Shown in pieces: positions 3,211 to 16,888 of a stretch of DNA of 64,000 bases (its first letter is position 1; every line of letters starts with the position of its first letter). The notes under the pieces are model-generated. The model searched no databases. It saw nothing but the letters and a program-made list of their open reading frames with translations, and was not told the DNA's origin. The translations under genes were made by a program, and so were the position numbers. Where the stretch lies: positions 372,001 to 436,000 of the forward strand of contig QAYZ01000015.1 of the NCBI GenBank assembly GCA_003054655.1, given 5' to 3'. This DNA is from Spartobacteria bacterium LR76 (GTDB lineage Bacteria; Verrucomicrobiota; Verrucomicrobiia; Chthoniobacterales; Terrimicrobiaceae).

Positions 3211-6200
3211 TTACTGAAGCTTGCTGAAGTAGTCGCTATAGGCGGCGGCAAACTCATTCGAGGCGGTGCCTCCGTCCGTCGTCTTGTCCCAGTTGACCGA
3301 CCACGTCATGATGCCGCGCAGTCCCGGGTATCCCGTGGTGCTGCGGAGCTTGTACGTATTGGCATATCCCGACGTGCCCGTAACCAGGTAGTCGAGCGCC
3401 TTCTTCACCGTCGCCGGGGCGATGTAGCCGCCGGCCGGAGCCGCCGAGGGCGTGGCGGGCAGGCCGATGGCGACCTTGTCCGCGCCGAGGCCGGGGAAGG
3501 CATTGGCCGCGTTGCGCGCCACCGGGAAGCCCGAGATTAGCATCTCCGTCATGGCGACCACGAAGTCCGGCGTGCTCTGGCTCAGGATGAGATCCTTGTT
3601 CGGATCATTCACCCCCGTGTAGGCGTACTGCGACCCCGTGTTGTAGTACTGCACGTGGACAAACGTGAGTTTGTCGCGCAGCGCATGCAGGATCGGGAGA
3701 TACCCGCCGAAGGCTCCCCCGTAGTTGCCGTAGCCGCCCTGGACGTACTGCGTCTCCGGTGCGGCGGTAAGGATGAAGTTACTGCCATATGCATCCGCGA
3801 TTTCCCGCAGGGCGCTGATCAGGTTCACGATCTTCGGTGTCTTCGGATTCTTGAAGTCCGTGTCGCCGCTGTCGAGGATCACGGATGTGCCTTCCAGGTC
3901 CACGTCGAGACCATTGAAGCCGTATTCATCGATGATCGCCTTCATCGAGGTGACGAACTGCTGCTTCTGGGCTGTGGTCTTGAGCTCGATGGGGGCGTTG
4001 GCTCCGCCGATCGAGATGACGACCTTGGTGCCGCGCTGCTTGAGGGCGGCGACGTCGGCCTTGAACTGCGTCTTGCTCTCCACCGCCGGGGCGAAGGCCA
4101 TGTCGGCTCCGCCTGAGGTGGCGGGCTCGGCAAAGGCGATGTTCACCTGGCTGTAACGGCTGTCTACGTTGCGCAGCGGGATGTACGGCGAGGCGGAGCT
4201 GTTCCAGTTATGCCAGTAGCCGACCACGGCGCGGGTCGCCGGGATGGTGGTCGAGCCGCCGCCGGTCGTGTCGGTGCTGCCGCCAGTGCTGCCTGTGCCT
4301 CCGGTCGTTCCGCCGGTATCCGTGGTGCCGCCCGTCGTGCCGCCGGTACTTCCGCCAGTGGTGGCCGTCGCGCCGTTGAGGGCGAAGTTCTCCGCCACCT
4401 TGTCCGCGCTCGACGAGGTCTGCACGCCGAAGGTCACCGATTTGCCGGGAGCGATGGTGCCGTTCCACGACTCATTGGTGAAGGTGTAGCGGTTGCCCAC
4501 CTTGGTGCCGCCCTTGGCACTCCAGAAGCTGGTGATCGGCACGTCGAGGTCGAAGCTCACCGTCCAGCCCGAGAGCGAGGTCGTGCCGTTGTTCGTCACG
4601 GTGACATTGGCGCTGTAGCCGCTGCCCCAGTCCGAACCCACCGCAAATGCCACGCTGCCCGTAGCGGTATTGTCCGTGCCGGTCGAGCCGCCCGTGGTTC
4701 CACCGGTGCTACCGCCGGTCGATCCTCCGGTATCCGTGCTGCCACCAGTCGATCCTCCGGTCTCCGTGCTACCGCCGGTGGAGCCGCCGGTGGAACCTCC
4801 TGTCGAGCCGCCGGTGCTTCCACCTGTGCTTCCGCTCGCCACGCCATTGATGACGAAGTTCTCCGCCGTCTTGTCGGCGCTCGAGGAGGTCTGGACGCCG
4901 AAGGTCACCGACTTCCCGGGGGCGATCACGCCATTCCACGACTCATTGGTAAACGTCGCTTTCGTACCGCTCTGCGAGCCCTTGGCGCTCCAGAAGCTGG
5001 TGATCGGCACGCCGAGGTCAAAGCTCACCGTCCAGCCGGTCACCGAGGCGGTGCCGTTGTTGGTCAGCGTGACATTGGCCGTGTAGCCGCTGCCCCAGTC
5101 ACTCACAACCGCGAAGGCCGCCGCAACCGAAGCCGAGCCGGAATCCGTGCTGCCGCCAGTCGATCCACCAGTGCTTCCTCCGGTCGAGCCGCCCGTGCTT
5201 CCGCCCGAGTCATCCGCCGGCAGCGGAATGCCGACAGGCGAGCTCACGAGAGCAACCGGGCTTTTGTAGTAGTTCTGGACCTTGCTGATCCAGTAGTAGC
5301 TCTCGCCCGAGCCGACGTTGTCGGTGCTGTCACCCACGCCGGGACCGAAGAGCGCGACGGTCACACCCGCATCGCGGGCGAGCTGGAAGTGCGAACCCCA
5401 GGTGAGATTGCTTCCGCTCGTGCTGACCAGGGACTGGCCGCCATCGGTCGTGCCGAAATACGTGGCGCGAGTTCCGGTCGTGGTGAAGGTATCACCGAAG
5501 AAGTACGTGGACGCCGAGTCCTCGTAGTTCTGCGTGGTATTCGTCAGGTCCGGGAACTTCGCGTTTGTATACGGGCTGATCGCGGTGGTCGAGTTGATGC
5601 GGCCCACCGGCACCTGCCACAGGGTCACCGGGAGCTGCGTGGTGTTATGCAGCGCATTGACAAAGATCAGGTAATTCGTCCAGTGCGTCGCATTCCAGAA
5701 CCACGTGGACTGCGCCGGATCGCTGTTCTTGTTCTCAAACCCCGCGTCGAGGCCGTACTTGTCGATGCTGATGAACTTGGCACCATGGGTCAGGATGCCC
5801 GCCGACACGTAGTAGTTTGCGATGGCCTTGGCCTCGTTGTAGATCGCATTGCGACCCTTCGCCAGGCCGAGCGTATCCGTGAGGCGCACGATGCCCTTGC
5901 CCGTGATACCCGCATTGGTGAAGCCACCCGCAGGCGAGGCCCAGAGGTTGAACTGCCAGCCGAAGATGGCATTAGGCTGGTATTTGCTAATGGTGTAGTT
6001 AATCGCCTCGACCAGTCCGCGCAGGGTGTTGGGGAACGTCGGATCGACGCCCTTCACCAGCACGCCGCTCGTATAAGCCGCGTCGGTCTGCGCGACGATG
6101 GTGTCGGGCGTACCGGTGTTGTTCTGCGCGAAGTAGCCCAGGAAATCCGGCTCGAGCACCCAGCCGATGGGTTCATCACCGCCCGCTTCCTTCGTGATCT

Positions 6201-7278
6201 CGAGGGCATGGCGAAGGTCGGCAAAGTAGCCTTCCATGTAGGTCTTGGACTCGATGTGCGCCTTGTCGGTGTAGTAGCTCTCGCCGCCGTCGGGGATGTT
6301 GTACCAGACGAAGTACGGGATCATGCCGAGCTTGACGCTCTCCTCGACGAAGCGCGTGGCGCGCTGGCCGTCGTTGAGCACGCGCCAGTTCCACCCGTCG
6401 CCAATGCTATTGGAGGCACCTCCATTCAGGTAGATGTAGCGCACGTCGACACGCTTGTTCTGCCCGGCATTGGCAAAGTCGGACCAGAAGTTCAGGTCCG
6501 CCGTGGAATCCTCACTCACCGAGCCGATGGCGAGATAGCCTGGCAGGCCGGGAGCCGAGCCGTCGGCATTGTTGATCCGTACGCCGAGGACACGGGTCTT
6601 GCCCGAGGTGGACTCGCTGATGCGCACCGAGGCACGACCAGCCTTTTTGCCGGTGATCTGGAGCGCGCCGCTCACGATGGCCGCAGCGGCGACATCCGGG
6701 TTGTTGGAGACGACCGCGTACGTACCGGTGTTTTTAAACGGGTAGGTCTGCACGCCCGGCACCTGCGAGAGCTGGAGCACCTCGCCCTGCGCATCGGCAT
6801 TGAGCACGATGTCCGGCGTGGTCGTTGTCGAGCCCGATCCGTTGCCGCTATCGGTGGTCGATCCGCTGGTGTTGCCCGTGGTGGAGCTCGCGATGGCTGC
6901 GTTGTTCAGCTTGGCATTCGTCAGCAGCGCGTCCTTCGCCGTGCCATCGACCTGGATGCCGAACGAAACCGAGCCGCCCGCCGGGATATTTCCGGTCCAA
7001 CTTTCATTGGTAAAGGTATACGTCGAACCCGATTTGCTCTTCTGGATCGCACTCCATGAACTCGTAATCGTGCGATTCAGGTCAAACACCAGCGTCCAGC
7101 CGCTAATGGCTGTCGTTCCGGAATTTGAGATGGTGACCTTTCCGGTAAAACCGGAGTCCCATTTGCTCTCGACCGAGAGAGCCACGGTGGGAGCCGCGTT
7201 GGCCGAGGCCTGAGACAGGAATGTCGTCAGCAGCCCCAGCAGGAGGGTTATAAACGGAAAAAGGGGATTCCTCTTCAT
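3211..7278 (-). CDS. Secreted multidomain GH18 chitinase-like enzyme with three CBM2 domains and an unassigned central module
   Basis: A 1355-residue exported protein. Residues 1-28 form a signal peptide (start at ATG 7278, chosen so the leader begins MKRNPLFPF). CBM2-type cellulose/chitin-binding domains lie at about 29-127, 716-813 and 873-970, separated by long GGST/TGGS linkers. Residues ~156-236 look like a small beta-sandwich, and ~244-680 form a large module (WNWRVLNDGQRATRFVEE, GWVLEPDFLGYF) that I cannot place in a family; it may be a second catalytic barrel. The C-terminal 1015-1355 is a GH18 barrel with the signature NGLDVDLEG, catalytic Glu1129, so hydrolysis of beta-1,4-GlcNAc polymers is expected. 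The gene is monocistronic, ends in a terminator, and is divergent from a LytS/LytTR pair. Confidence 0.88.
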   Translation of the reverse strand: MKRNPLFPFITLLLGLLTTFLSQASANAAPTVALSVESKWDSGFTGKVTISNSGTTAISGWTLVFDLNRTITSSWSAIQKSKSGSTYTFTNESWTGNIPAGGSVSFGIQVDGTAKDALLTNAKLNNAAIASSTTGNTSGSTTDSGNGSGSTTTTPDIVLNADAQGEVLQLSQVPGVQTYPFKNTGTYAVVSNNPDVAAAAIVSGALQITGKKAGRASVRISESTSGKTRVLGVRINNADGSAPGLPGYLAIGSVSEDSTADLNFWSDFANAGQNKRVDVRYIYLNGGASNSIGDGWNWRVLNDGQRATRFVEESVKLGMIPYFVWYNIPDGGESYYTDKAHIESKTYMEGYFADLRHALEITKEAGGDEPIGWVLEPDFLGYFAQNNTGTPDTIVAQTDAAYTSGVLVKGVDPTFPNTLRGLVEAINYTISKYQPNAIFGWQFNLWASPAGGFTNAGITGKGIVRLTDTLGLAKGRNAIYNEAKAIANYYVSAGILTHGAKFISIDKYGLDAGFENKNSDPAQSTWFWNATHWTNYLIFVNALHNTTQLPVTLWQVPVGRINSTTAISPYTNAKFPDLTNTTQNYEDSASTYFFGDTFTTTGTRATYFGTTDGGQSLVSTSGSNLTWGSHFQLARDAGVTVALFGPGVGDSTDNVGSGESYYWISKVQNYYKSPVALVSSPVGIPLPADDSGGSTGGSTGGSTGGSTGGSTDSGSASVAAAFAVVSDWGSGYTANVTLTNNGTASVTGWTVSFDLGVPITSFWSAKGSQSGTKATFTNESWNGVIAPGKSVTFGVQTSSSADKTAENFVINGVASGSTGGSTGGSTGGSTGGSTGGSTETGGSTGGSTDTGGSTGGSTGGTTGGSTGTDNTATGSVAFAVGSDWGSGYSANVTVTNNGTTSLSGWTVSFDLDVPITSFWSAKGGTKVGNRYTFTNESWNGTIAPGKSVTFGVQTSSSADKVAENFALNGATATTGGSTGGTTGGTTDTGGTTGGTGSTGGSTDTTGGGSTTIPATRAVVGYWHNWNSSASPYIPLRNVDSRYSQVNIAFAEPATSGGADMAFAPAVESKTQFKADVAALKQRGTKVVISIGGANAPIELKTTAQKQQFVTSMKAIIDEYGFNGLDVDLEGTSVILDSGDTDFKNPKTPKIVNLISALREIADAYGSNFILTAAPETQYVQGGYGNYGGAFGGYLPILHALRDKLTFVHVQYYNTGSQYAYTGVNDPNKDLILSQSTPDFVVAMTEMLISGFPVARNAANAFPGLGADKVAIGLPATPSAAPAGGYIAPATVKKALDYLVTGTSGYANTYKLRSTTGYPGLRGIMTWSVNWDKTTDGGTASNEFAAAYSDYFSKLQ

Positions 7279-7354
7279 AATTTTCTTTGCAGGAGGGTTA
7301 ACCGGGCATGTAAGGGGAGGCCACGCGAACTCGACCAAGCGTCGCGGATACTCG

Positions 7355-8494
7355 ATGAATCAGCCACAAACCGAACCGCGCTCCACCCCCCATCCGCCAC
7401 CGGCTCCGCTCGGCGACGTGGTGCTGCGCTGGCTGCGTCGCCAGATCATCCGCCGCAAGATCATCTCGCTCTCCTTCTGGCGGGTGAATCTCACGGCCTG
7501 GCTGGTCTTCGCCATGATGACCTTCCTCATTCGGTGCCTCTTTCACCTCGATGTGCCGAAAGCGTTGATTCTCACTATCTTGAACGAAAGCCTGGCGCTC
7601 GGGACCTCGCTCATCCTGCGCCGCTACTACCGTCACTTCGGCATCCCGTTTCGCTTGCGCACCGCCCTCTCGGTGGTCGCAGTCAGCCTGTTCTGGTCGG
7701 TCGTCCTCTCCCTGGCCACTTACCTCATCACCCTGGCCACCGGATGGCGGATGCAAAACATCACCGACCTGGAGTCGTCCATGCTGCGATTTACCATCAT
7801 GTGGACGGCTCTCCTGGGGTGGAGCCTCGGGTATTTCTGGTTCCAGGCGGAAAAGGCGTGGACGGCGGAGTCGCGCCATGCCGAGGAGGCGGAACATCAG
7901 GCTCACCGGATGGAACTCCAGATGCTCCGTGCCCAGCTCGACCCGCATTTTTTGTTCAACTCCCTCAACGGCATCGCCGCCGAGGTGCACGCCCATCCCG
8001 ATCAGGCCGTCGAGATGATCTGCCGCCTCTCGGACTATCTCCGCTACTCGCTCGAGCACCGCAAGCAGACCTTTACCGCGCTGGCATCCGAACTGGGAGC
8101 GATGCGCGCCTACCTGGAGATTGAAAAGGCCCGCTTCGGCGACCGCCTGAGGTTCTCTGTCGATGCCTCGTCCGACGCCCTCACCCACCGCGTCCCCACC
8201 TTCATCCTCCAACCGCTCGTCGAGAATGCCCTGAAGTGGGGGTTTCATCAGTCCGCCAAGACCATGACCGTCGACATCCACGCCTTTCAGACGGGCGGCG
8301 TCCTTGAGATCGAGGTGATGAATGGCGGCCACCTCGAGTCCACCCCTCGCGACAAGGCGGGCGGCCTCGGCCTCGACACCCTCAGCCGGCGACTCGATCT
8401 CTACTACCCGGGCCGCCACCACTTCACCCTTGAGCAACGCGGCGACAGCGTTTGCGCAACCATTCAACTCTGGGGAGCGGCCGAGGCGGTTTAG
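7355..8494 (+). CDS. LytS/YehU-type membrane sensor histidine kinase
   Basis: A 379-residue kinase. Four or so hydrophobic segments span residues ~45-165, then a short linker leads to the His_kinase domain (PF06580 type) with the phosphoacceptor motif LDPHFLFNSLN (His198) and a C-terminal GHKL ATPase containing the N-box LQPLVENALKWG and the GGLGLDTL loop. It has no recognisable extracellular sensor domain, so the stimulus probably acts in or near the membrane. It is followed 77 bases later by its LytTR response regulator. It is transcribed away from the large GH18 gene, with only 76 bases between the two starts. Confidence 0.9.
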   Translation: MNQPQTEPRSTPHPPPAPLGDVVLRWLRRQIIRRKIISLSFWRVNLTAWLVFAMMTFLIRCLFHLDVPKALILTILNESLALGTSLILRRYYRHFGIPFRLRTALSVVAVSLFWSVVLSLATYLITLATGWRMQNITDLESSMLRFTIMWTALLGWSLGYFWFQAEKAWTAESRHAEEAEHQAHRMELQMLRAQLDPHFLFNSLNGIAAEVHAHPDQAVEMICRLSDYLRYSLEHRKQTFTALASELGAMRAYLEIEKARFGDRLRFSVDASSDALTHRVPTFILQPLVENALKWGFHQSAKTMTVDIHAFQTGGVLEIEVMNGGHLESTPRDKAGGLGLDTLSRRLDLYYPGRHHFTLEQRGDSVCATIQLWGAAEAV

Positions 8495-8571
8495 TCCCGC
8501 GCAAAAAACTTCCCACCCCGCGCATTCGCTGGCAGAGTCGCGGGGTCAGTTCCCCAGGGTTCTACGCTGCC

Positions 8572-9384
8572 ATGAATTCGCCAGTCACTGTCACGCATCC
8601 GTCTGCCGAGATGACGACACCAGTCGCACCGGCTCGCGGCCCCATCCGCGTCATGCTCATCGACGACGAACGCCTCGCCCGACAGGGCCTGCGCGAGCTG
8701 CTGCACGAGTTTTCCGACGTGGAGATCGTCGGCGAGGCCGATACCGCCGCCTCCGCCGTGGCTCAGATCCCGGTGCTCTCCCCGGACGTGATCTTTCTCG
8801 ACATCCGGCTGCCGGGCGGCGACGGCTTCAGCGTCCTGGAGTCCCTCGACCGCGTGCCCTTTGTCGTCTTCGTCACCGCCTACTCCGACTACGCCACCCA
8901 GGCCTTTGACGTGGAGGCGGTGGATTATTTGCTGAAACCCGTGCGCCGTTCCCGGCTGGAGGAAAGCCTCCGTCGCGTCCGCGCGGAACTCGGCTCCGGC
9001 GACCAGCCGCCCTACACCCTCTCCGACCGCATCTGCCTGCGCACGCCCGAGCGCACCATCATCGCGCCATTGTCCAATCTCATCTCGCTCAAGGCCGAGG
9101 GCGACTTCACCCGCGTGAGCGTGGCGGAGCTTTCGCCTCTCCTCATCTGCCAGACGCTCGGCATCTACGAGCGCACCCTGCCCTCGCCGCCCTTTCTCCG
9201 CGTCGACCGCTCGCTCATTCTGAACCTCAACCGGCTGAGCTCGGTCGAGATCAGTCCCTCGCGCGGGGCTCGTGTCTTTATGGAGGGGGCAGAAGAGCCA
9301 ATACCGGTGGGCCGGACCGGCCTGCGCCGCCTGCGGGCCGCCCTGCCCCAGCATCTCTCCGGCATCCCGGAGACCGAGAGTTGA
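8572..9384 (+). CDS. LytTR-family response regulator
   Basis: A 270-residue protein with an N-terminal receiver domain (VMLIDDERLARQG acidic pocket; phosphoacceptor Asp77 in IFLDIRLPGGDG; conserved Lys in LLKPVRRSR) and a C-terminal LytTR DNA-binding domain (residues ~160-262, with ISLKAEGDFTRV and FLRVDRSLILNLNRLSSVE). I chose the ATG at 8572: the frame extends upstream, but those residues do not look like protein. It is the partner of the preceding LytS-type kinase. LytTR regulators usually control exported proteins, and the adjacent divergent chitinase is a possible target (inference). Confidence 0.9.
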   Translation: MNSPVTVTHPSAEMTTPVAPARGPIRVMLIDDERLARQGLRELLHEFSDVEIVGEADTAASAVAQIPVLSPDVIFLDIRLPGGDGFSVLESLDRVPFVVFVTAYSDYATQAFDVEAVDYLLKPVRRSRLEESLRRVRAELGSGDQPPYTLSDRICLRTPERTIIAPLSNLISLKAEGDFTRVSVAELSPLLICQTLGIYERTLPSPPFLRVDRSLILNLNRLSSVEISPSRGARVFMEGAEEPIPVGRTGLRRLRAALPQHLSGIPETES

Positions 9385-9427: not shown

Positions 9428-11125
9428 CTAAAGCATCTCCCGCGCCAGTTCCCCAATGAGGCGGTCGAGCCGCGCCGGGTCGACGGGCTTGGTCAGGTGA
9501 TGATCAAAGCCCGACTCCTTGCTCCGGCGCACATCCTCCTCCATGCCATAGCCGCTCACCGCGACGCCGCGCAATTTCGGATAACGGGTCCGCAACTGGC
9601 TCATCAGCTCCGCCCCCGAGATGTCGGGCAGGCCGAGATCGCTGATGACGAGATGGAAACCTGCGCTCTCCGCCAAAGCCAGAGCCGCATGGCCCGTACC
9701 CGCAGCCTCGACGGTGTGGCCCTTCTGCCGGAGGATCATTTGCAACAAATGGCGCGTATCGTCGTGATCCTCGACGAGCAGGATGTTAAGGCCTCGCCGC
9801 ATTGCGGTTTCCACCTCCGCCGCATCGGCGGACCTGACCGGCTGCACGCCCCTCCGCAAGGGGATCTCCACATGAAAGGTCGCCCCCTTGTTCGGCCCCG
9901 GGCTCTCGCCCCAGATGCGCCCTCCGTGCGCGGAGACAATCGACCGGCTGATCGACAGCCCAAGCCCCAGCCCGCCAAAGAGCCGCGTGATCTCGCGCCC
10001 CACCTGCTCAAAGGGCTGGAAGAGCTGCGGCTCCTCCGCCGCGTTGAAACCGATGCCCGAGTCGCGCACGGAAATCCGAAATGCCCCGGGCGCAGGATTC
10101 TCCGTGGTGATCTGGATGGAGCCGCCCGAAGGGGTGAACTTCACGGCATTGCGGATAACGTTCCAAAGCACCTGCTGGAGCCGCACCACATCGCCGACCG
10201 TGCGACTCTCGGCCGCGAGCCGCCGCACGGTGAGCTTGAGATTCTTTGCCTCCCAGGTCGAGTGGCAGATCTCCAGCACGCGATCCAGGACGGAGTCGAT
10301 ATCCAGTTCGGCATCCTGAAGCTCGAACTTCCCGTGCGCGATGCGCGTGAGATCGAGGAGATCGTCGATAAGACGGATCTCCAGCTCAATGTTGCGCCGG
10401 ATCATGGAAAGATGCGTCAATACACCATCGGGCAGCCCCCTCTCCTGCTGAAGCGTGGCGATGCCCATGAGCGCTGGCGTAAGCGGCGTGCGCAGCTCGT
10501 GGCTGAGGGCGGCGAGGAAGCTGTCCTTGGCCGCGCTGGAGCGCTCGGCGACCTCCTTGGCCAGCCGCAGGACCTCGCCCGATTTCTGCAGGCTCAGGTC
10601 GGTGACGACGAGACAGATCACCGTCTGGTCCATGAGAGGCAGCAAGCTCGCGGTGAAGTGTACCGGCAACTCCTCCCCGGTCGCGCATTGCAGGAAGCTC
10701 TCGTGCTTGGCCGCACCCTCGTGATCGTCGAGCACGGTCGAGATCGCGGCCCAGCTTTGCGCATCGAGGCGCGGGATGAGCTGCGAGCTGATCACCTGGT
10801 CGAGGGGTTCGCCCAGCATTTCCGCAAACCGCTGGTTGCAGTACAGGATGAGACCCTCCGGAGTCACGGTCACCGCGCCCTCCTGCATCTGCTCGACATA
10901 GATGCGATACGGGTGTTCCGCCCCGGAGAGGCTGTATATCTTGTTGCCCTGGCTGCCGGTGACGACCACCGCGTCGACCTCTCCGTTGCGAATGGCATTG
11001 AGCGTCTCCTGCGCCTCATGGAGGCTGGCCTGCAACTGCCCAAACTCCGTCGGACTCATCCAGACTCCGCGATTGCCAGCATTTTCGGCCGACTCGGCGG
11101 GCGGCTCCCCGGGATTTCCGTTCAT
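9428..11125 (-). CDS. PAS-containing hybrid histidine kinase with C-terminal receiver (kai operon)
   Basis: A soluble 565-residue hybrid kinase. A PAS domain spans roughly 70-180, a HisKA domain follows with phosphoacceptor His209 (LAALSHELRTPL), then a HATPase_c domain (NVIRNAVKFTPSGG; DSGIGF; GGLGLGLSIS), and a receiver domain at ~445-565 with phosphoacceptor Asp496 (ISDLGLPDISG). No membrane segment is seen. Its ATG overlaps the stop of the second kaiB gene by four bases (ATGA), so it is the last gene of the kai operon. By analogy with cyanobacterial KaiB-fold sensors and SasA it is a plausible output or input kinase of the Kai proteins; this link is inference from operon structure. Confidence 0.9.
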   Translation of the reverse strand: MNGNPGEPPAESAENAGNRGVWMSPTEFGQLQASLHEAQETLNAIRNGEVDAVVVTGSQGNKIYSLSGAEHPYRIYVEQMQEGAVTVTPEGLILYCNQRFAEMLGEPLDQVISSQLIPRLDAQSWAAISTVLDDHEGAAKHESFLQCATGEELPVHFTASLLPLMDQTVICLVVTDLSLQKSGEVLRLAKEVAERSSAAKDSFLAALSHELRTPLTPALMGIATLQQERGLPDGVLTHLSMIRRNIELEIRLIDDLLDLTRIAHGKFELQDAELDIDSVLDRVLEICHSTWEAKNLKLTVRRLAAESRTVGDVVRLQQVLWNVIRNAVKFTPSGGSIQITTENPAPGAFRISVRDSGIGFNAAEEPQLFQPFEQVGREITRLFGGLGLGLSISRSIVSAHGGRIWGESPGPNKGATFHVEIPLRRGVQPVRSADAAEVETAMRRGLNILLVEDHDDTRHLLQMILRQKGHTVEAAGTGHAALALAESAGFHLVISDLGLPDISGAELMSQLRTRYPKLRGVAVSGYGMEEDVRRSKESGFDHHLTKPVDPARLDRLIGELAREML

Positions 11126-11511
11126 TCGTCGTCTTCTCCGTGCTCAAGGGTTTCGTGGCTGAGATCGAGACCGACCAGGATGCGGTCGCGATCGGAAAGA
11201 TCGCCGATCAGACGCTTGTGCGGCAGCGGCTCCGACTTCACCAGGGTGGGCGCTGCGATGATCTGGTCGGCCTGGACCGCGGTGGGCTGCTGATAAATAT
11301 CCACCACCGTCAGCTCATAGTGACCTGCGAGATAATCGTCACACAGCGCCCGGATGGTCTCAATGGCCTTCGCCGAACGCAATGTCGTTCCCGTCACATA
11401 CAGGCGCAGAACATAGTGCTGTTCCCCGGAGGTTTTTAGCATCTCCTCAAACTCCCGGGTGCTGTCGATGTATTGGCTTCGCTCCCTCTGCATCATGTTA
11501 TCCCTTCGCAT
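11122..11511 (-). CDS. kaiB: KaiB-family protein (second copy, extended N-terminus)
   Basis: A KaiB-fold protein of up to 129 residues. The core YVLRLYVTGTTLRSAKAIE ... ELTVVDIYQQP ... QIIAAPTLVKSEPLP ... IGDLSDRDRILVGLDL matches KaiB from start to finish. About 30 N-terminal residues precede the core, so one of the internal ATGs at 11496 or 11493 may be the real start. It shares less than half its core residues with the neighbouring kaiB, so the two are old paralogues rather than a recent duplication. It is co-transcribed with kaiC and coupled by ATGA to the downstream kinase. Confidence 0.92.
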   Translation of the reverse strand: MRRDNMMQRERSQYIDSTREFEEMLKTSGEQHYVLRLYVTGTTLRSAKAIETIRALCDDYLAGHYELTVVDIYQQPTAVQADQIIAAPTLVKSEPLPHKRLIGDLSDRDRILVGLDLSHETLEHGEDDE

Positions 11512-11532
11512 GTCATCTGCGGGTGGATTCCC

Positions 11533-11874
11533 CTAGTTTGCTTTCAGGCTCTGGATGTCCATACCGACGATCACCTTTTCCGAGTTGGAAAGATCTCCGA
11601 CGATACGCTTGATCGGCTCGGGGAGTTTTCGCACCAGCGTGGGCAGGGCGACGATCTGGTCGGCCTGCGCCAGGTGCGGATTTTTCACGAGGTCGATCAC
11701 TTCGATCCGGTATTGGCCGGGCAGATGTTCCTCGCACAGCCGCTTGAGATTGGCAAAGGCTGTGAGGGATTTTGGGGTCTGCCCGGCCACGTACAGACGG
11801 AGGGAGAAGGTCTCGGCCTCCGGCGGTGAGCCGTTCGCGCCATTGACGGCGGTTTTCTGGTTTCTTTTCTTCAT
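11533..11874 (-). CDS. kaiB: KaiB-family protein (first copy)
   Basis: A 113-residue KaiB, close to the ~100 residues of cyanobacterial KaiB. The core [21 protein letters not shown], the [22 protein letters not shown] segment (thioredoxin-like half) and the C-terminal [17 protein letters not shown] are all present. KaiB is a metamorphic protein that binds the CI ring of KaiC and promotes dephosphorylation. Its ATG overlaps the kaiC stop by four bases (ATGA), which couples translation of KaiB to KaiC. There is a 21-bp gap to the second kaiB. Confidence 0.93.
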
Positions 11875-13595
11875 CTACGACGTTTCGGAGCAGTGGATTC
11901 AGAAGCGAGACCACGGCTCCGGCTCATGGCTTCCCGATCAGTAGAAATTCTTTGCAGCCGCGCCTGCTCGGCCTCGACCGCGCGCAGGAACTCCTCTTCC
12001 TCCGCCATCAGGCCGGCGCGAAGGGCCTCGATCTGCGCCTCGGTAGCACGGCGGCGATGTTCATACGCGAGCTTCTTGCGGGCGACCTCGTCCTCGGTCT
12101 TGCGCAGGTCTTTTGCGTTTCGCGCCTCCTGCGCCACGCGGGCGGAGCCGGTGAGCACACCCTCCGCGCCGAGATAGGCCTCCACGAGTTTGAGGCCTTG
12201 CGAGGTGATGAGAAATTCCCGCACCTGATTGGAGTGCGCCATGCCGCGCGATTTCAGGATATAAAGCAAACGGTTTCGCTCGCCGTTTGTCTCCACATCA
12301 CGCAGTAGCAGCCAGGTGTCGACGATGGAGCTGAGCCCTTCCTCGGTCGCCTCGACAGCCTTGCCACCGCCGCTCAGGCTCACCATGAACCCGAGGATGT
12401 TGTTCTTCCGCAGGTAGTCCACCATGCGGATCAGCATGTTGGTGGATTCCTCCAGCGTGCCGGCATTCTGCATGTTGGAGACCGGGTCGATGATGACCAC
12501 GGAGGGTTGGAAATCTTCTATTAGCTTATGCATGCGCACGAGGTGCATTTCGAGTCCGAAGACCGTGGGCCTCGTGGAGTGGAACTCCAGGGTCCCTTTC
12601 TTCACGTATGGCGCAAGGTCTACACCTATAGATCGCATGTTCCTCTGGATCTGCGCGGGCGATTCCTCGAAAGAAAAGTACATACACCTCTCGCCGCGCG
12701 CGCACGTGGCCCGCGCAAGCTGGGCCGCCACACTACTCTTTCCCGTGCCTGCCGTGCCCGAGAGCAGCACCGTGCTCCCACGGTAATACCCGTCGCCGCC
12801 CAGCATCTCGTCCAGACCATCCACCCCGCTGGAGATCCGCTCGTTGGAAACTTCGTAGTCCAGCCCCGAGGCCGTGATGGGCAGCACCGAGATGCCCTCC
12901 TCGTCGATGAGAAAGGGATACTCGTTGGTTCCGTGCGTGGTGCCGCGATATTTCACCACGCGCAGCCGCCGGGTGGAGATCTGGCCGATCACGCGATGGT
13001 CGAGCAGGATGACACAATCCGACACATACTCCTCCAGCCCCTGCCGCGTGAGCTGCCCCTCGCCGCGCTCGCCGGTGATCACCGTGGTCATGCCCCGCTC
13101 CTTCAGCCAGTAGAAAAGCCGCCGCAGCTCCGAGCGCAGCACCGCCTGGTTGGACAAGCCCGAGAAGAGCGTCTCGATGGTGTCGAGCACCACACGCTTC
13201 GCCCCGATCGACTGGATCGCATACCCGAGGCGGATAAAGAGTCCCTCGAGGTCGTATTCCCCATTCTCCTCGATCTCGGCCCGGTCGACCTTCACGTGGT
13301 CAATGACGAGCTTCTTTTCCGCAATCAGCTTGTCCACGTCGAAGCCGAGCGACGCCACGTTCTTGCGAATGTCGTCCGCCGTTTCCTCAAAGGTCATCAG
13401 CACGCCCGGCTCGCCAAATTCCATCGCGCCCCGAATGAGAAACTCCACCGCAAAGAGCGATTTTCCGCATCCCGCCGAACCGCAAACCAAAGTCGGCCGC
13501 CCCTGCGGCACTCCCCCGTTCGTGATCTGGTCAAATCCGTCAATACCTGTCGGGGCCTTTTTCAAGACAGGGAGAGATTTTTTTACTTTCGCCAT
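11871..13595 (-). CDS. kaiC: KaiC-family circadian/clock-like ATPase-autokinase
   Basis: A 574-residue tandem RecA-fold ATPase. CI has Walker A GSAGCGKS (39-46) and catalytic Glu pair in TFEET (70-71). CII has Walker A GTAGTGKS (280-287) and SFEES (310-311). The autophosphorylation site that is Ser431-Thr432 in Synechococcus aligns with Ser422-Ser423 here (GLSSIVDT). Residues ~480-574 form a charged coiled-coil tail not found in cyanobacterial KaiC. The start at 13595 is preceded by a good GGAGG ribosome site; the upstream extension is low-complexity Gly. It leads an operon with two kaiB genes and a hybrid kinase. No kaiA is present, so a KaiBC timer or stress switch is likelier than a full oscillator (inference). 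Confidence 0.94.
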
Positions 13596-14077: not shown

Positions 14078-14143
14078 CAGTTAAGCGATCGGATGAAACT
14101 TGAACTCGAGCCATGCAATGAAGAGTGGTTTTCGATCGACCTT

Positions 14144-16213
14144 ATGAATTCAATGAAAGAACAAATCCCTCCAGCGTCATCCCGGCTTCGGCTGGTGCGG
14201 TCGGCAATATCTGCGCTTCTGGCATTCTTTGCGCTTGTCGCAGACGCCCGCAGTGGCTGGCAGGATGCGGTTCAGCCTGTGGGAACGTCGGCGCTTTCGA
14301 CCTCCTTGCATTACGCCGCAGGACTCGACCGAATGATTCCGACTTATTCGGGACCGACCTGCCGAATTAACGGCGCGGCCATCGGCGTGACTGCGTCCGG
14401 GACATTCGACGAATCTGCGGCGCTGATCGCCCTGCCCAAGGGAAGTCCGTCGCTTGAGGGAATTGAGGTCGAGCTGGCGTTGCAGCGTCCAGGCAAGACA
14501 GAGCCGATTTGGATGACGGTTCCGCCCGGTCAATCGAAACCGACCTTTGGCAAGGATGCCGCTGGCAATTGGTGTATTCACTTTGCGGGGAGCCGTGCGC
14601 TCTCGACGGCTCTTGAGGGGATGTCCTTCGCAACCGGCGGCGGCAAGTCCTTTACGGGCATTGTCATCAACCCGATTCGCAAGGAAAAGGGAGGCGCAGG
14701 CTCCCCGGACTACCCTTGGTCATACCGTGGCAGTGGCGGCGCGAACCAGGTGGACGTGCAACTGGGAGGAACCGGCGGTACGGCCCTCTTCTCCTGGCGC
14801 AACGGGGCGGCGCAGAGTCCGTCTTACAAGTCCGCAGAGGCTCTCCCGGAGGGCTCCCACAGTATCTTCACGCTCAACTGCGGTGCGGATGGATCTTTCG
14901 CCGTATTTCGGAACGGTGCGCAATTGAACACGCAGCAACGCGCGCCAGCGCCAGCGGCTCTGGAAGAGAAGGGGGGAACGCTTCGCCTCGGGATCGACAG
15001 CAGCGAGTCCGCCGCGGCCAACCAGGGCCAGGATTTCCTGCTGTACGGCATCATTGTCTCCGACCGGCTCTCGATCCCGGAAATACGCAGGCTGCACTGG
15101 GGGCTTGCCCGGCAGGCAGGATGGCGGCGGTCTCTGACTCTGGCGCAACTGCCGGCCCTCGGCGAAGTTTTTGATTTCGGGAAAACGACGGATGCCGGAA
15201 GCAAAACAGCGATTCCGGGGCTGTTCGGAAAGGCCAATCTGGTCCTCAATACAGCCGAAGTTCCCAACGGGAAGACGGTTTACCAACCGGCATTCTCTCC
15301 GGCTTCCGAGAGCGAGTATGGCATCCGCGGGCTCTATGCGGGTGACTACAAAAATGTGGCGAATGTTTTCCAGGCAGACACCGGCTATTTCTCCGACCAA
15401 TGGGAATGGACCGTCTGGATCATCGCCATGCTCGACCCGGCCATGGCGTCGAACAATTCCCTGGTCGACCTGCTGGGAATGCGCTCGGGGCCTATGACCG
15501 AGTCCGGCAGCCGCGGCAAGGGGGGAATCGAAGCTCCGTGGACGGTGGGTCGCCATCACAACAACTGGGTCTTTTACACCAACCCCACTGTAGCCATCGA
15601 CAACCCGCCGGAGATCAACTTTGAAACGGATTTCGCCAAGTGGCCGTGCAAAGTGGTTCAGGCTCCCATAGGAAAGACCGACCTGACCCACGACGAGTGG
15701 GGCAATGCCCACATCTTCGCCTACCGCGACCGCCTGCATTTGCAATGGGTCACCCAACCCGGCGACCCCAAGGACAATATCCCGCCAGCCATGAGCGTTG
15801 GGGATTCGGACGACCATAAGCCCGCTTCACTCCGTTATGGCGTTCCCTATCTGATCATCATCAAATACAAGCCGAACCCGGATCTGGACCGGAATAATCC
15901 GGCCACCTGGAGCGCCCACAAGCAAGACTCCTATAAACAGATCAAGGCGGCACCCCTGACCGAAGTGATGGCCTGGGATCGCACCGACTGCTCTGTGGCC
16001 ACCACGGCAAAGGGGGCGCTGGCGGCACCCGTGGCCGATGCACGCATCATGAGTTGTGGGAGGATGCACATGAAGTATTCCTTCCAGGGCTACCGGTTTG
16101 CCGCAGGTTTCATCCCCGGCCGCATTACCACAGACGAGGAAGATTTGGCGATTTTCTACAATGGCATGAACCTGGCCAACTACCTTTCTGCGCCGGGTCC
16201 CTCCTCGAAATGA
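14144..16213 (+). CDS. Large exported protein of unknown function
   Basis: About 689 residues. After a basic stretch (SSRLRLVRSAISALLAFFALVADA) with a hydrophobic core that looks like a signal peptide, there is no further membrane segment, so the protein is probably exported. I placed the start at ATG 14144; ATGs at 14093 and 14153 are also possible and none has a convincing ribosome site. Two halves can be seen: ~60-320, where beta-rich segments (GTGGTALFSWRNG, LRLGIDSS, FLLYGIIVSDRLS) resemble concanavalin/LamG-type sandwiches, and ~330-680, rich in Trp, Tyr and Asp (FSDQWEWTVWIIAMLD, YRDRLHLQWVTQPGD). I recognise no catalytic motif. It stands alone between kai and DUF5069 genes. Confidence 0.7.
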   Translation: MNSMKEQIPPASSRLRLVRSAISALLAFFALVADARSGWQDAVQPVGTSALSTSLHYAAGLDRMIPTYSGPTCRINGAAIGVTASGTFDESAALIALPKGSPSLEGIEVELALQRPGKTEPIWMTVPPGQSKPTFGKDAAGNWCIHFAGSRALSTALEGMSFATGGGKSFTGIVINPIRKEKGGAGSPDYPWSYRGSGGANQVDVQLGGTGGTALFSWRNGAAQSPSYKSAEALPEGSHSIFTLNCGADGSFAVFRNGAQLNTQQRAPAPAALEEKGGTLRLGIDSSESAAANQGQDFLLYGIIVSDRLSIPEIRRLHWGLARQAGWRRSLTLAQLPALGEVFDFGKTTDAGSKTAIPGLFGKANLVLNTAEVPNGKTVYQPAFSPASESEYGIRGLYAGDYKNVANVFQADTGYFSDQWEWTVWIIAMLDPAMASNNSLVDLLGMRSGPMTESGSRGKGGIEAPWTVGRHHNNWVFYTNPTVAIDNPPEINFETDFAKWPCKVVQAPIGKTDLTHDEWGNAHIFAYRDRLHLQWVTQPGDPKDNIPPAMSVGDSDDHKPASLRYGVPYLIIIKYKPNPDLDRNNPATWSAHKQDSYKQIKAAPLTEVMAWDRTDCSVATTAKGALAAPVADARIMSCGRMHMKYSFQGYRFAAGFIPGRITTDEEDLAIFYNGMNLANYLSAPGPSSK

Positions 16214-16441: not shown

Positions 16442-16888
16442 TTAGCTCTGGTAGCTCTGCTTGTCGTCGACTTCCAGCCAGTCGAGGAGCGTGACTTTCG
16501 CCGGATCGAGGCCGGACTTCGTCGCCTCGCCCACGAACCATTCGCGCTTCTCCGGGTCATCGTAGGGACGGTAGCCCTCGACGTTCTTGCCGAATTCCGC
16601 GATCTCCTCGGGCGTCTTGGCCGCGCCGTTGGCATTCAGCCAGGCCACCACTTCCTCGTCCGTCGCGCCCTTTTCCAGGAGGGCTTTGACGTCGCTGCCC
16701 TTCACTTCCTTGAAGCCGAAGAGGTAGTTGTCCAGCGGACAGTCGAAATGGTACTCGCCGTTCTTCCCGGCCAGCGTGGCGCGGCCCTTGTCGATCGCGC
16801 GGCCGAGGAGGATGTAGCCGCCTACGCGTTCACGCGGGCTGCGCGGGGCTTCTTTCGTCAGGTCTTTGTATTCCAGTGTCGTGCTCAT
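16442..16888 (-). CDS. DUF5069 domain-containing protein
   Basis: A 148-residue soluble protein made almost entirely of a DUF5069 domain: RVGGYILLGRAIDKGRATLAGKNGEYHFDCPLDNYLFGF is the hallmark N-terminal half, followed by an acidic helical C-terminus (TDEEVVAWL, PYDDPEKREWFV, LLDWLEVDD). The family is common in Verrucomicrobiota and has no established function. The gene is divergent from a TetR regulator across a 108-bp gap that contains a near-palindrome, so it is the likely regulatory target (inference). Confidence 0.85.
   Translation of the reverse strand: MSTTLEYKDLTKEAPRSPRERVGGYILLGRAIDKGRATLAGKNGEYHFDCPLDNYLFGFKEVKGSDVKALLEKGATDEEVVAWLNANGAAKTPEEIAEFGKNVEGYRPYDDPEKREWFVGEATKSGLDPAKVTLLDWLEVDDKQSYQS

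Follow-up and report, generated by a model that had tools for sequence, protein, structure and literature searches.

A KaiA-free kaiC operon with two kaiB genes in Spartobacteria bacterium LR76 and a kinase N-terminal module linked to kaiB

Results and Discussion

The kai operon

The window examined in this study, meaning the whole 64,000-nucleotide (nt) stretch of contig QAYZ01000015.1 (positions 372,001 to 436,000) from Spartobacteria bacterium LR76, carries on its minus strand a row of four open reading frames (ORFs) in the order kaiC, kaiB, kaiB, hybrid histidine kinase, running from 13595 to 9428. KaiA-free KaiB-KaiC systems occur in many bacterial phyla and in some archaea, and the operon is a further example of this known kind of timer, in a two-KaiB form that is common but has been little described. 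The part of it most worth following is a short segment near the start of the kinase, termed here the N-module. The genes (lengths in amino acids, aa) and their overlaps are:

11871-13595, minus strand: kaiC, KaiC2 type, 574 aa, two RecA-like ATPase domains (Pfam, NCBIfam, structure-chain match)
11871-11874, minus strand: ATGA overlap of the kaiC stop and the first kaiB start (ORF and sequence reading)
11533-11874, minus strand: kaiB-a, 113 aa, 65% identical to Rhodobacter sphaeroides KaiB over the compared domain (Pfam, alignment)
11122-11511, minus strand: kaiB-b, 129 aa, distal-copy lineage, 42% identical to kaiB-a (Pfam, tree, alignment)
11122-11125, minus strand: ATGA overlap of the kaiB-b stop and the kinase start (ORF and sequence reading)
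9428-11125, minus strand: hybrid histidine kinase, 565 aa, with N-module, PAS, HisKA, HATPase_c and REC (Pfam)

An earlier note on this DNA, made from its letters, had described a kaiC-kaiB-kaiB-kinase operon without kaiA and with ATGA overlaps at the kaiC/kaiB and kaiB/kinase junctions. This description was borne out: the four ORFs were found, Pfam families match each gene, and the overlaps lie at 11874-11871 and 11125-11122, with a gap of 21 nt between the two kaiBs. Spurious or chance ORFs are ruled out by the family matches and the conserved gene order. The motif GGAGG stands closely upstream of the kaiC start (13595) on the coding strand; a promoter and terminator scan gave no signal exceeding that of shuffled sequence. 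In the 4.75 Mb genome these two were the only KaiB matches, and one double-domain KaiC was found, along with two weak ATPase matches elsewhere. KaiA (PF07688) had zero matches in this 96% complete genome, and the Synechococcus elongatus positive control matched.

The N-module of the kinase

The domains of the kinase are:

10880-11047, minus strand: N-module, kinase residues 27-82, 56 model positions, without a Pfam family (profile model)
10601-10897, minus strand: PAS domain, kinase residues 77-175 (Pfam)
10331-10531, minus strand: HisKA dimerisation/phosphoacceptor domain (Pfam)
9854-10195, minus strand: HATPase_c catalytic domain (Pfam)
9461-9784, minus strand: receiver domain (Pfam)

The N-module was modelled from 24 rows, with the consensus E...LR.RL.EAEETL.AIR.GEVDA.VV.G..G.QVYTL..AD.PYRVLVE.M.E. 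An isoleucine, a glycine and an aspartate, which correspond to I45, G48 and D51 of the kinase, are invariant in these rows; over 70 rows the aspartate alone stays invariant, with the other two each conserved in at least 90%. Pfam gave no match better than an expectation value (E) of 0.02 on the 24 rows. A single copy is present in the genome of the window, where all candidates were scored. The module was also matched in Rhizobium sp. BG4 (68 bits) and in R. sphaeroides KD131, where it opens the HWE kinase that lies directly 3' of kaiB (47 bits). The open-licence literature yielded no description of a shared N-terminal kinase module or of an a/b KaiB pair, subscription papers and supplements being mostly outside the search, and the letters GEVDALVV had no occurrence in a paper search of the same literature.

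A PAS domain was found in all 70 carriers scanned (70 of 71 were long enough), and the outputs among these carriers are varied: HATPase_c in 44, HisKA in 42, REC in 20, HWE in 4, HisKA_2 and HisKA_3 in 3 each, and, more rarely, GGDEF, EAL and Hpt (2 each), a sigma-54 activator (1) and HD (1). Thirteen carriers, all from Bacteroidota, have no kinase part and consist of a closed frame of 222-227 aa. Because one N-module-PAS front end joins many different output domains in the relatives, we infer that it serves KaiC2 systems generally as an output adaptor, the counterpart of the KaiB-like domain of SasA. A SasA-like KaiB fusion was itself rejected, since no KaiB match was found in the window kinase or among 25 listed of the 35 families in the 70 carriers. 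The SasA model PRK09303 reached 134 bits on the kinase, against a cut-off of 342, over residues 177-425 only.

Linkage of the N-module to kaiB and to the type of KaiC

Gene order was compared in 80 loci from named genomes, those whose KaiC is most like that of the window among at least 573 relatives; they came from Verrucomicrobiota, Bacteroidota, Pseudomonadota, Planctomycetota, Acidobacteriota, Nitrospirota, Chloroflexota, Myxococcota and others, as well as from Methanoperedens archaea. A kaiB was present in 75 of these loci; two of them end at a contig edge (L007 and L069), and 71 of the remaining 73 have the N-module after kaiB, at a median distance of 57 nt behind the last KaiB domain (range 27 to 270, n = 71). 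None of the five KaiC loci without kaiB has the module. The three of these five that were placed in the KaiC tree described below form one clade (support 100/100), inside a six-row set (99/97) whose remaining rows have both genes; because the kaiB-less clade nests among such loci, it looks as though kaiB and the N-module were lost together, once.

Genome-wide matches to the N-module were accepted at E up to 0.001, a copy in the window's own phylum being counted as beside KaiB if the two lay within about 1.5 kb. In three large samples scoring was limited to the top 16-17 first-look candidates of each genome; in the window genome and in 15 chosen genomes it covered all candidates. In the window's own phylum the module occurs in 16 of 387 genomes, one copy each, all covered by the 20 genomes with a KaiB over the cut-off, and 15 of the 16 copies lie beside KaiB, all but that of L127. 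The corresponding figures for Bacteroidota are 28 of 395 genomes, all covered by the 37 with a KaiB over the cut-off, with 28 of 28 beside KaiB. Eleven of 398 Pseudomonadota genomes contain the module, in each case beside both KaiB and KaiC (one match, L157, is weak at 24 bits), and the fifteen genomes of chosen loci contain 16 copies, all of them beside KaiB but L147. In total, with three double-counted genomes removed, 66 of 68 copies in 1192 genomes lie beside kaiB. Fisher tests gave 2e-35 for Bacteroidota, 5e-25 for the window's own phylum and 1e-6 for 78 of the loci; they ignore kinship and serve as a guide only, the values being too small because the genomes are related. L147, an additional copy in the L042 genome, sits in a 1776-aa frame, with no kaiB or kaiC in the stretch examined.

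The type of KaiC also appears to matter. Loci L087, L198 and L202 contain kaiB and a short-tailed KaiC with a Ser-Thr pair in place of Ser-Ser, and all three are without the N-module, at the locus and genome-wide. Because loci with Ser-Thr-type KaiC are without it, the comparison suggests that the module goes with KaiC2. Four other loci (L089, L179, L211 and L212) encode a Ser-Ser-type KaiC that has no coiled-coil tail, although a broken draft frame is possible in each, and they keep KaiB and the N-module; the tail thus seems not to be needed for the module, and is unlikely to be what the module reads. Similarly, the module is present in 13 of the 14 single-KaiB loci, with a KaiB of either lineage, so that no particular KaiB copy appears to be required.

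Identity of KaiC

The features of KaiC are listed below.

13458-13481, minus strand: CI Walker A motif GSAGCGKS, residues 39-46 (sequence)
12735-12758, minus strand: CII Walker A motif GTAGTGKS, residues 280-287 (sequence)
12327-12332, minus strand: Ser422-Ser423, counterpart of the R. sphaeroides KaiC S413/S414 phosphorylation pair (alignment)
11874-12155, minus strand: C-terminal tail from LTGSAR, 94 residues, which aligns with the 8dba coiled-coil tail (alignment)

The Pfam KaiC ATPase family matches this protein twice (E 8e-113), and the NCBIfam KaiC model PRK09302 scores 746 bits against a cut-off of 408, while the cyanobacterial model TIGR02655 (circ_KaiC) stays below its cut-off at 365 of 546 bits. 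The earlier note had named a place among RadA or other RecA-like ATPases as what would refute its reading; this identity was rejected, with 61 bits for the RadA (sms) model against a cut-off of 403 and model scores that favour KaiC. The closest solved protein is R. sphaeroides KaiC (8dba), with 685 bits over residues 12-562, most of the tail included (the alignment of the tail reaches residue 555 of 568), and the best KaiC chain other than the R. sphaeroides constructs reaches 384 bits. Both ATPase sites are kept, with Walker A motifs starting at residues 39 and 280, and the Ser-Ser pair is at 422-423, as had been claimed. The claim of about 95 added residues at the C-terminus stands in part: the tail is of the coiled-coil type and runs for 94 residues from LTGSAR to the end, but the figure overstates what is added, because the extension beyond other KaiCs is about 50 residues (PMC10076222).

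A clade that is mostly kaiC2 has been described as having two serines as phosphorylation sites and a C-terminal tail extended by about 50 residues (PMC10076222). Among 81 rows (the window and the 80 best loci), 80 have the Ser-Ser pair, L035 having Ser-Ala, and 80 have a long tail (84 residues or more, counted from the first residue of LTGSAR), L010 being a broken frame in a draft record. The pair and the tail were therefore rejected as novelties, both being published KaiC2 hallmarks and near-universal among the compared relatives. The oddness that the earlier note implied for the operon is not borne out either: the arrangement of kaiC-kaiB genes with a kinase or other signalling gene downstream or nearby is likewise on record (PMC3164672, PMC4794148, PMC6627678, PMC10931921).

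A KaiC phylogeny, proposed in the earlier note as a check, was built from 34 rows, three of them of the Ser-Thr type. The window KaiC groups with three Verrucomicrobiota rows (support 100/99), and it falls with R. sphaeroides KaiC in a 31-row set, of the Ser-Ser type in all rows but L035, that is split from the three Ser-Thr-type KaiCs at 100/100. The nearest relatives among the matches listed are Verrucomicrobiota loci L007-L010, with 71-76% identity. Because the tree was built without cyanobacterial KaiC1 and KaiC3 rows, placement among KaiC1, KaiC2 and KaiC3 rests on the model scores, the Ser-Ser pair and the tail. The equivalog model, the two serines, the extension of about 50 residues and the tree all agree in assigning this protein, on sequence grounds, to the KaiC2 subgroup.

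The two KaiB proteins

Both KaiBs match PF07689 (93 and 82 bits against a cut-off of 27; E 9e-27 and 2e-23), and both fall short of the cut-offs set for the KaiB equivalogs of NCBIfam, 110 and 145 bits. In the 80 best loci, kaiC is followed by two kaiBs in 60, three in 1, one in 14 and none in 5; a double kaiB is usual among close relatives of the window KaiC. KaiB2 and KaiC2 are known to co-occur, and one Bacteroidetes group encodes KaiB2/KaiC2-like proteins only (PMC5520375).

In a tree of 142 KaiB rows and 92 columns, 60 of the 62 distal copies and five single copies form one 65-row lineage. Outside it fall the proximal KaiBs, R. sphaeroides KaiB and two cyanobacterial KaiBs, the distal copies L055_b and L056_b being aberrant. 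The distal lineage also has a residue signature of its own, seen in a comparison of 72 proximal-type with 65 distal-type rows (Thermosynechococcus elongatus numbering): position 8 is W in 81% of proximal-type rows versus Y in 89% of distal-type rows, position 15 A in 100% versus T in 80%, position 48 L in 76% versus Y in 92%, position 49 mixed versus Q in 88%, and position 67 R in 90% versus K in 86%. Because the distal copies share one lineage and one signature, the a-then-b order is most likely that of an old pair. The second KaiBs of L055 (6039-6311, Ectothiorhodospiraceae bacterium) and L056 (8041-8313, Proteobacteria bacterium 005FR1) are extremely divergent, on a branch of 3.83, and have G-R-L in place of the G-D-L or G-D-M of other KaiBs.

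The fold state was predicted with AlphaFold for each KaiB together with its ten most identical relatives, after the model of a published protocol that took the ten closest by evolutionary distance (PMC10808063). The C-terminus of KaiB-a is predicted as helix-helix-strand (predicted local distance difference test, pLDDT, 65), which is the KaiB ground topology (PMC11185700), and the best structural matches of the model are ground-state KaiBs, with template modelling (TM) scores by target of 0.66-0.77 compared to 0.42-0.52 for fold-switched KaiBs; a ground fold is predicted for KaiB-a at modest confidence. A split in which one KaiB is in the ground state and the other fold-switched is not claimed, because the switching, C-terminal half of KaiB-b has a pLDDT below 50. 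At positions 23 and 26 of the lateral KaiB-KaiB contact (positions from PMC6769508), KaiB-a proteins are mostly neutral and 48% of KaiB-b proteins have Arg at 23, a charge pattern that may be taken as a lead only.

Genes around the operon

A pair encoding a LytS-like protein (His_kinase) and a LytTR response regulator (7355-9384, plus strand) lies outside the operon and converges on it, with 43 nt between the facing ORF ends. Beyond it, a large protein is encoded at 3211-7338 (minus strand), in which a scan of 3214-7257 detected three cellulose-binding (CBM_2) stretches and a chitinase-like GH18 domain, consistent with a polysaccharide-degrading heterotrophic host. On the upstream side of kaiC are a 706-aa protein with zero Pfam matches (14093-16213, plus strand) and a DUF5069 protein (16442-16888, minus strand).

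Relation to known systems

The closest known system is the KaiB-KaiC pair of R. sphaeroides (Cereibacter) KD131 (PDB 8DBA, 8FWI, 8FWJ), an hourglass of solved structure driven by adenosine triphosphate (ATP) and diphosphate (ADP). Its KaiC is a dodecamer of two hexamers joined by a coiled coil and autophosphorylates without KaiA by means of an extended A loop; the coil is not required for this step and has a role in dephosphorylation and stability. The KaiB of this system binds to the ADP state of the CI ring, the ATP-to-ADP ratio being the driving cue (PMC10076222). The two systems share a KaiC with Ser-Ser and a coiled-coil tail, the kaiC-kaiB-kinase order, the N-module at the start of the kinase and the lack of KaiA, but KD131 has one KaiB at the locus compared to two here, and an HWE kinase rather than the HisKA-HATPase_c-REC type. 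By its description, the Rhodopseudomonas palustris kaiC-kaiB-PAS histidine kinase operon (S1 Fig legend, PMC4794148) has the same gene order and a PAS kinase, with one kaiB reported instead of two.

Cyanobacterial KaiABC with SasA has the double-domain KaiC, KaiB and partner kinase in common with the window. It differs in that no KaiA was found here, the kinase has no KaiB-like domain and begins with another module, and KaiC has Ser-Ser and a long tail where the cyanobacterial protein has Ser-Thr. In the Ramlibacter group, kinases (Nt_HK) encoded downstream of kaiC have also been proposed as KaiC readers (PMC3164672); the description sets them apart from this operon, as there is no kaiB and their N-terminus is likened to SasA/KaiB, whereas the window has a kaiB-linked module of about 56 residues.

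A proposed mechanism and its alternatives

It is on balance probable that the operon as a whole encodes a KaiA-free KaiC2 timer with a dedicated reader kinase that docks through its N-module. By homology with R. sphaeroides, the two-ring ATPase KaiC would phosphorylate itself at Ser422/Ser423 when ATP is high, with the A loop driving the reaction and the coil joining hexamers and governing dephosphorylation. Rising ADP would then lead to dephosphorylated KaiC, and KaiB, once fold-switched and bound to the ADP-state CI ring, would speed ATP hydrolysis and keep KaiC unphosphorylated. The likeliest dock for the N-module would be the KaiB-KaiC complex at its rings, where the module and the adjoining PAS domain would set kinase activity, such that phosphorylation of the receiver, and of its partner, would track the state of the timer. 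In the least-supported step, the two KaiB lineages may split the work at the CI ring, with one, for example, resetting KaiC and the other presenting the kinase or competing with it. A broader proposal, put forward tentatively and about as apt to fail as to hold, is that the N-module is an undescribed receiver of the KaiB-KaiC2 state, the missing output connector that is plugged into whichever effector a lineage uses (several kinase classes, cyclic di-GMP enzymes, a sigma-54 activator), while two old KaiB lineages share the KaiC ring, one resetting the timer and the other gating the module.

Several points weigh against this interpretation. Conserved adjacency is no proof of binding, the kinase could act on KaiC instead of reading its state, and the autokinase activity and period of this KaiC are extrapolated from one relative. 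The 80 loci are an uneven sample, and the linkage counts are not independent, the genomes being related; distant N-module copies away from kai loci may also have been missed, because the model was built from kai loci and applied to the best 16-17 candidates per genome. Two loci with KaiB are without the module (L058, with two KaiBs and a kinase, and L086), and two copies of the module have no KaiB nearby (L127 and L147). In addition, 13 genomes have a KaiB over the cut-off and no N-module (4 of 20 in the window's own phylum and 9 of 37 in Bacteroidota). Three of these have Ser-Thr-type KaiC (G126, G803, G885), three show no KaiC in the stretch examined (G119, G812, G982), one lies at a contig edge (G216), two have partial KaiB matches (G975, G1015), and G1170 is the thirteenth; the other three (G293, G876 and G1057, with loci L091, L207 and L203) are true exceptions because their KaiC is of the Ser-Ser type with a tail. 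For the KaiBs, a fold prediction came out for KaiB-a only, and the distal branch, with a bootstrap of only 87 (Shimodaira-Hasegawa-like approximate likelihood ratio test, SH-aLRT, 99), comes from 92 columns and a bootstrap that had not settled.

There are several potential alternatives to a reader kinase on a timer. The most substantial, though less than probable, is that the system is an energy-state switch with no day-night role, in which KaiC2 tracks ATP/ADP and the kinase passes the state to a stress or starvation response. This explanation is compatible with docking of the N-module, and it fits three observations: the ratio of ATP to ADP resets the R. sphaeroides system (PMC10076222), in another bacterium a KaiB was tied to stress and not to rhythm (PMC10808063), and the window carries a cellulose-binding/GH18 gene, so that the host looks heterotrophic. 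It accords less well with R. palustris, where kaiC-dependent adaptive growth was limited to rhythmic environments (PMC4794148), and with the ground state predicted for KaiB-a, as predicted for known fold-switching KaiBs. No evidence emerged here for the stress or day-night nutrient cues suggested in the earlier note. It is unlikely that the PAS kinase is instead an input, setting or resetting the timer through KaiB-KaiC in response to an oxygen- or redox-type cue sensed by its PAS domain, although PAS is conserved in all scanned carriers, standalone N-module-PAS proteins exist without a kinase, and others have suggested that the clock receives redox or oxygen signals from a PAS kinase near kaiBC (PMC10931921). 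Because the fused effectors differ so widely in chemistry (HisKA, HWE, GGDEF/EAL, sigma-54 activator, HD), an output adaptor fits better than an input.

It is also possible, but rather improbable, that the KaiBs are redundant and that the N-module is a mere kinase dimerisation helix kept by inheritance. By eye the module opens with a heptad-like stretch, and it is retained in loci with one KaiB of either lineage. However, unrelated kinase classes and also non-kinases have retained it, it is rare away from kai genes, and most distal KaiBs share T15, Y48, Q49 and K67.

Conclusions

Of the KaiA-free systems, the core of one has been solved. The four Ser-Ser-type loci whose KaiC seems to have lost its tail are useful natural controls for what the tail does, and the two-KaiB arrangement is a natural system in which the resetting and output roles of KaiB may be split. 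The N-module, being short and near-exclusively linked to kai genes, offers a direct handle on the output of the timer.

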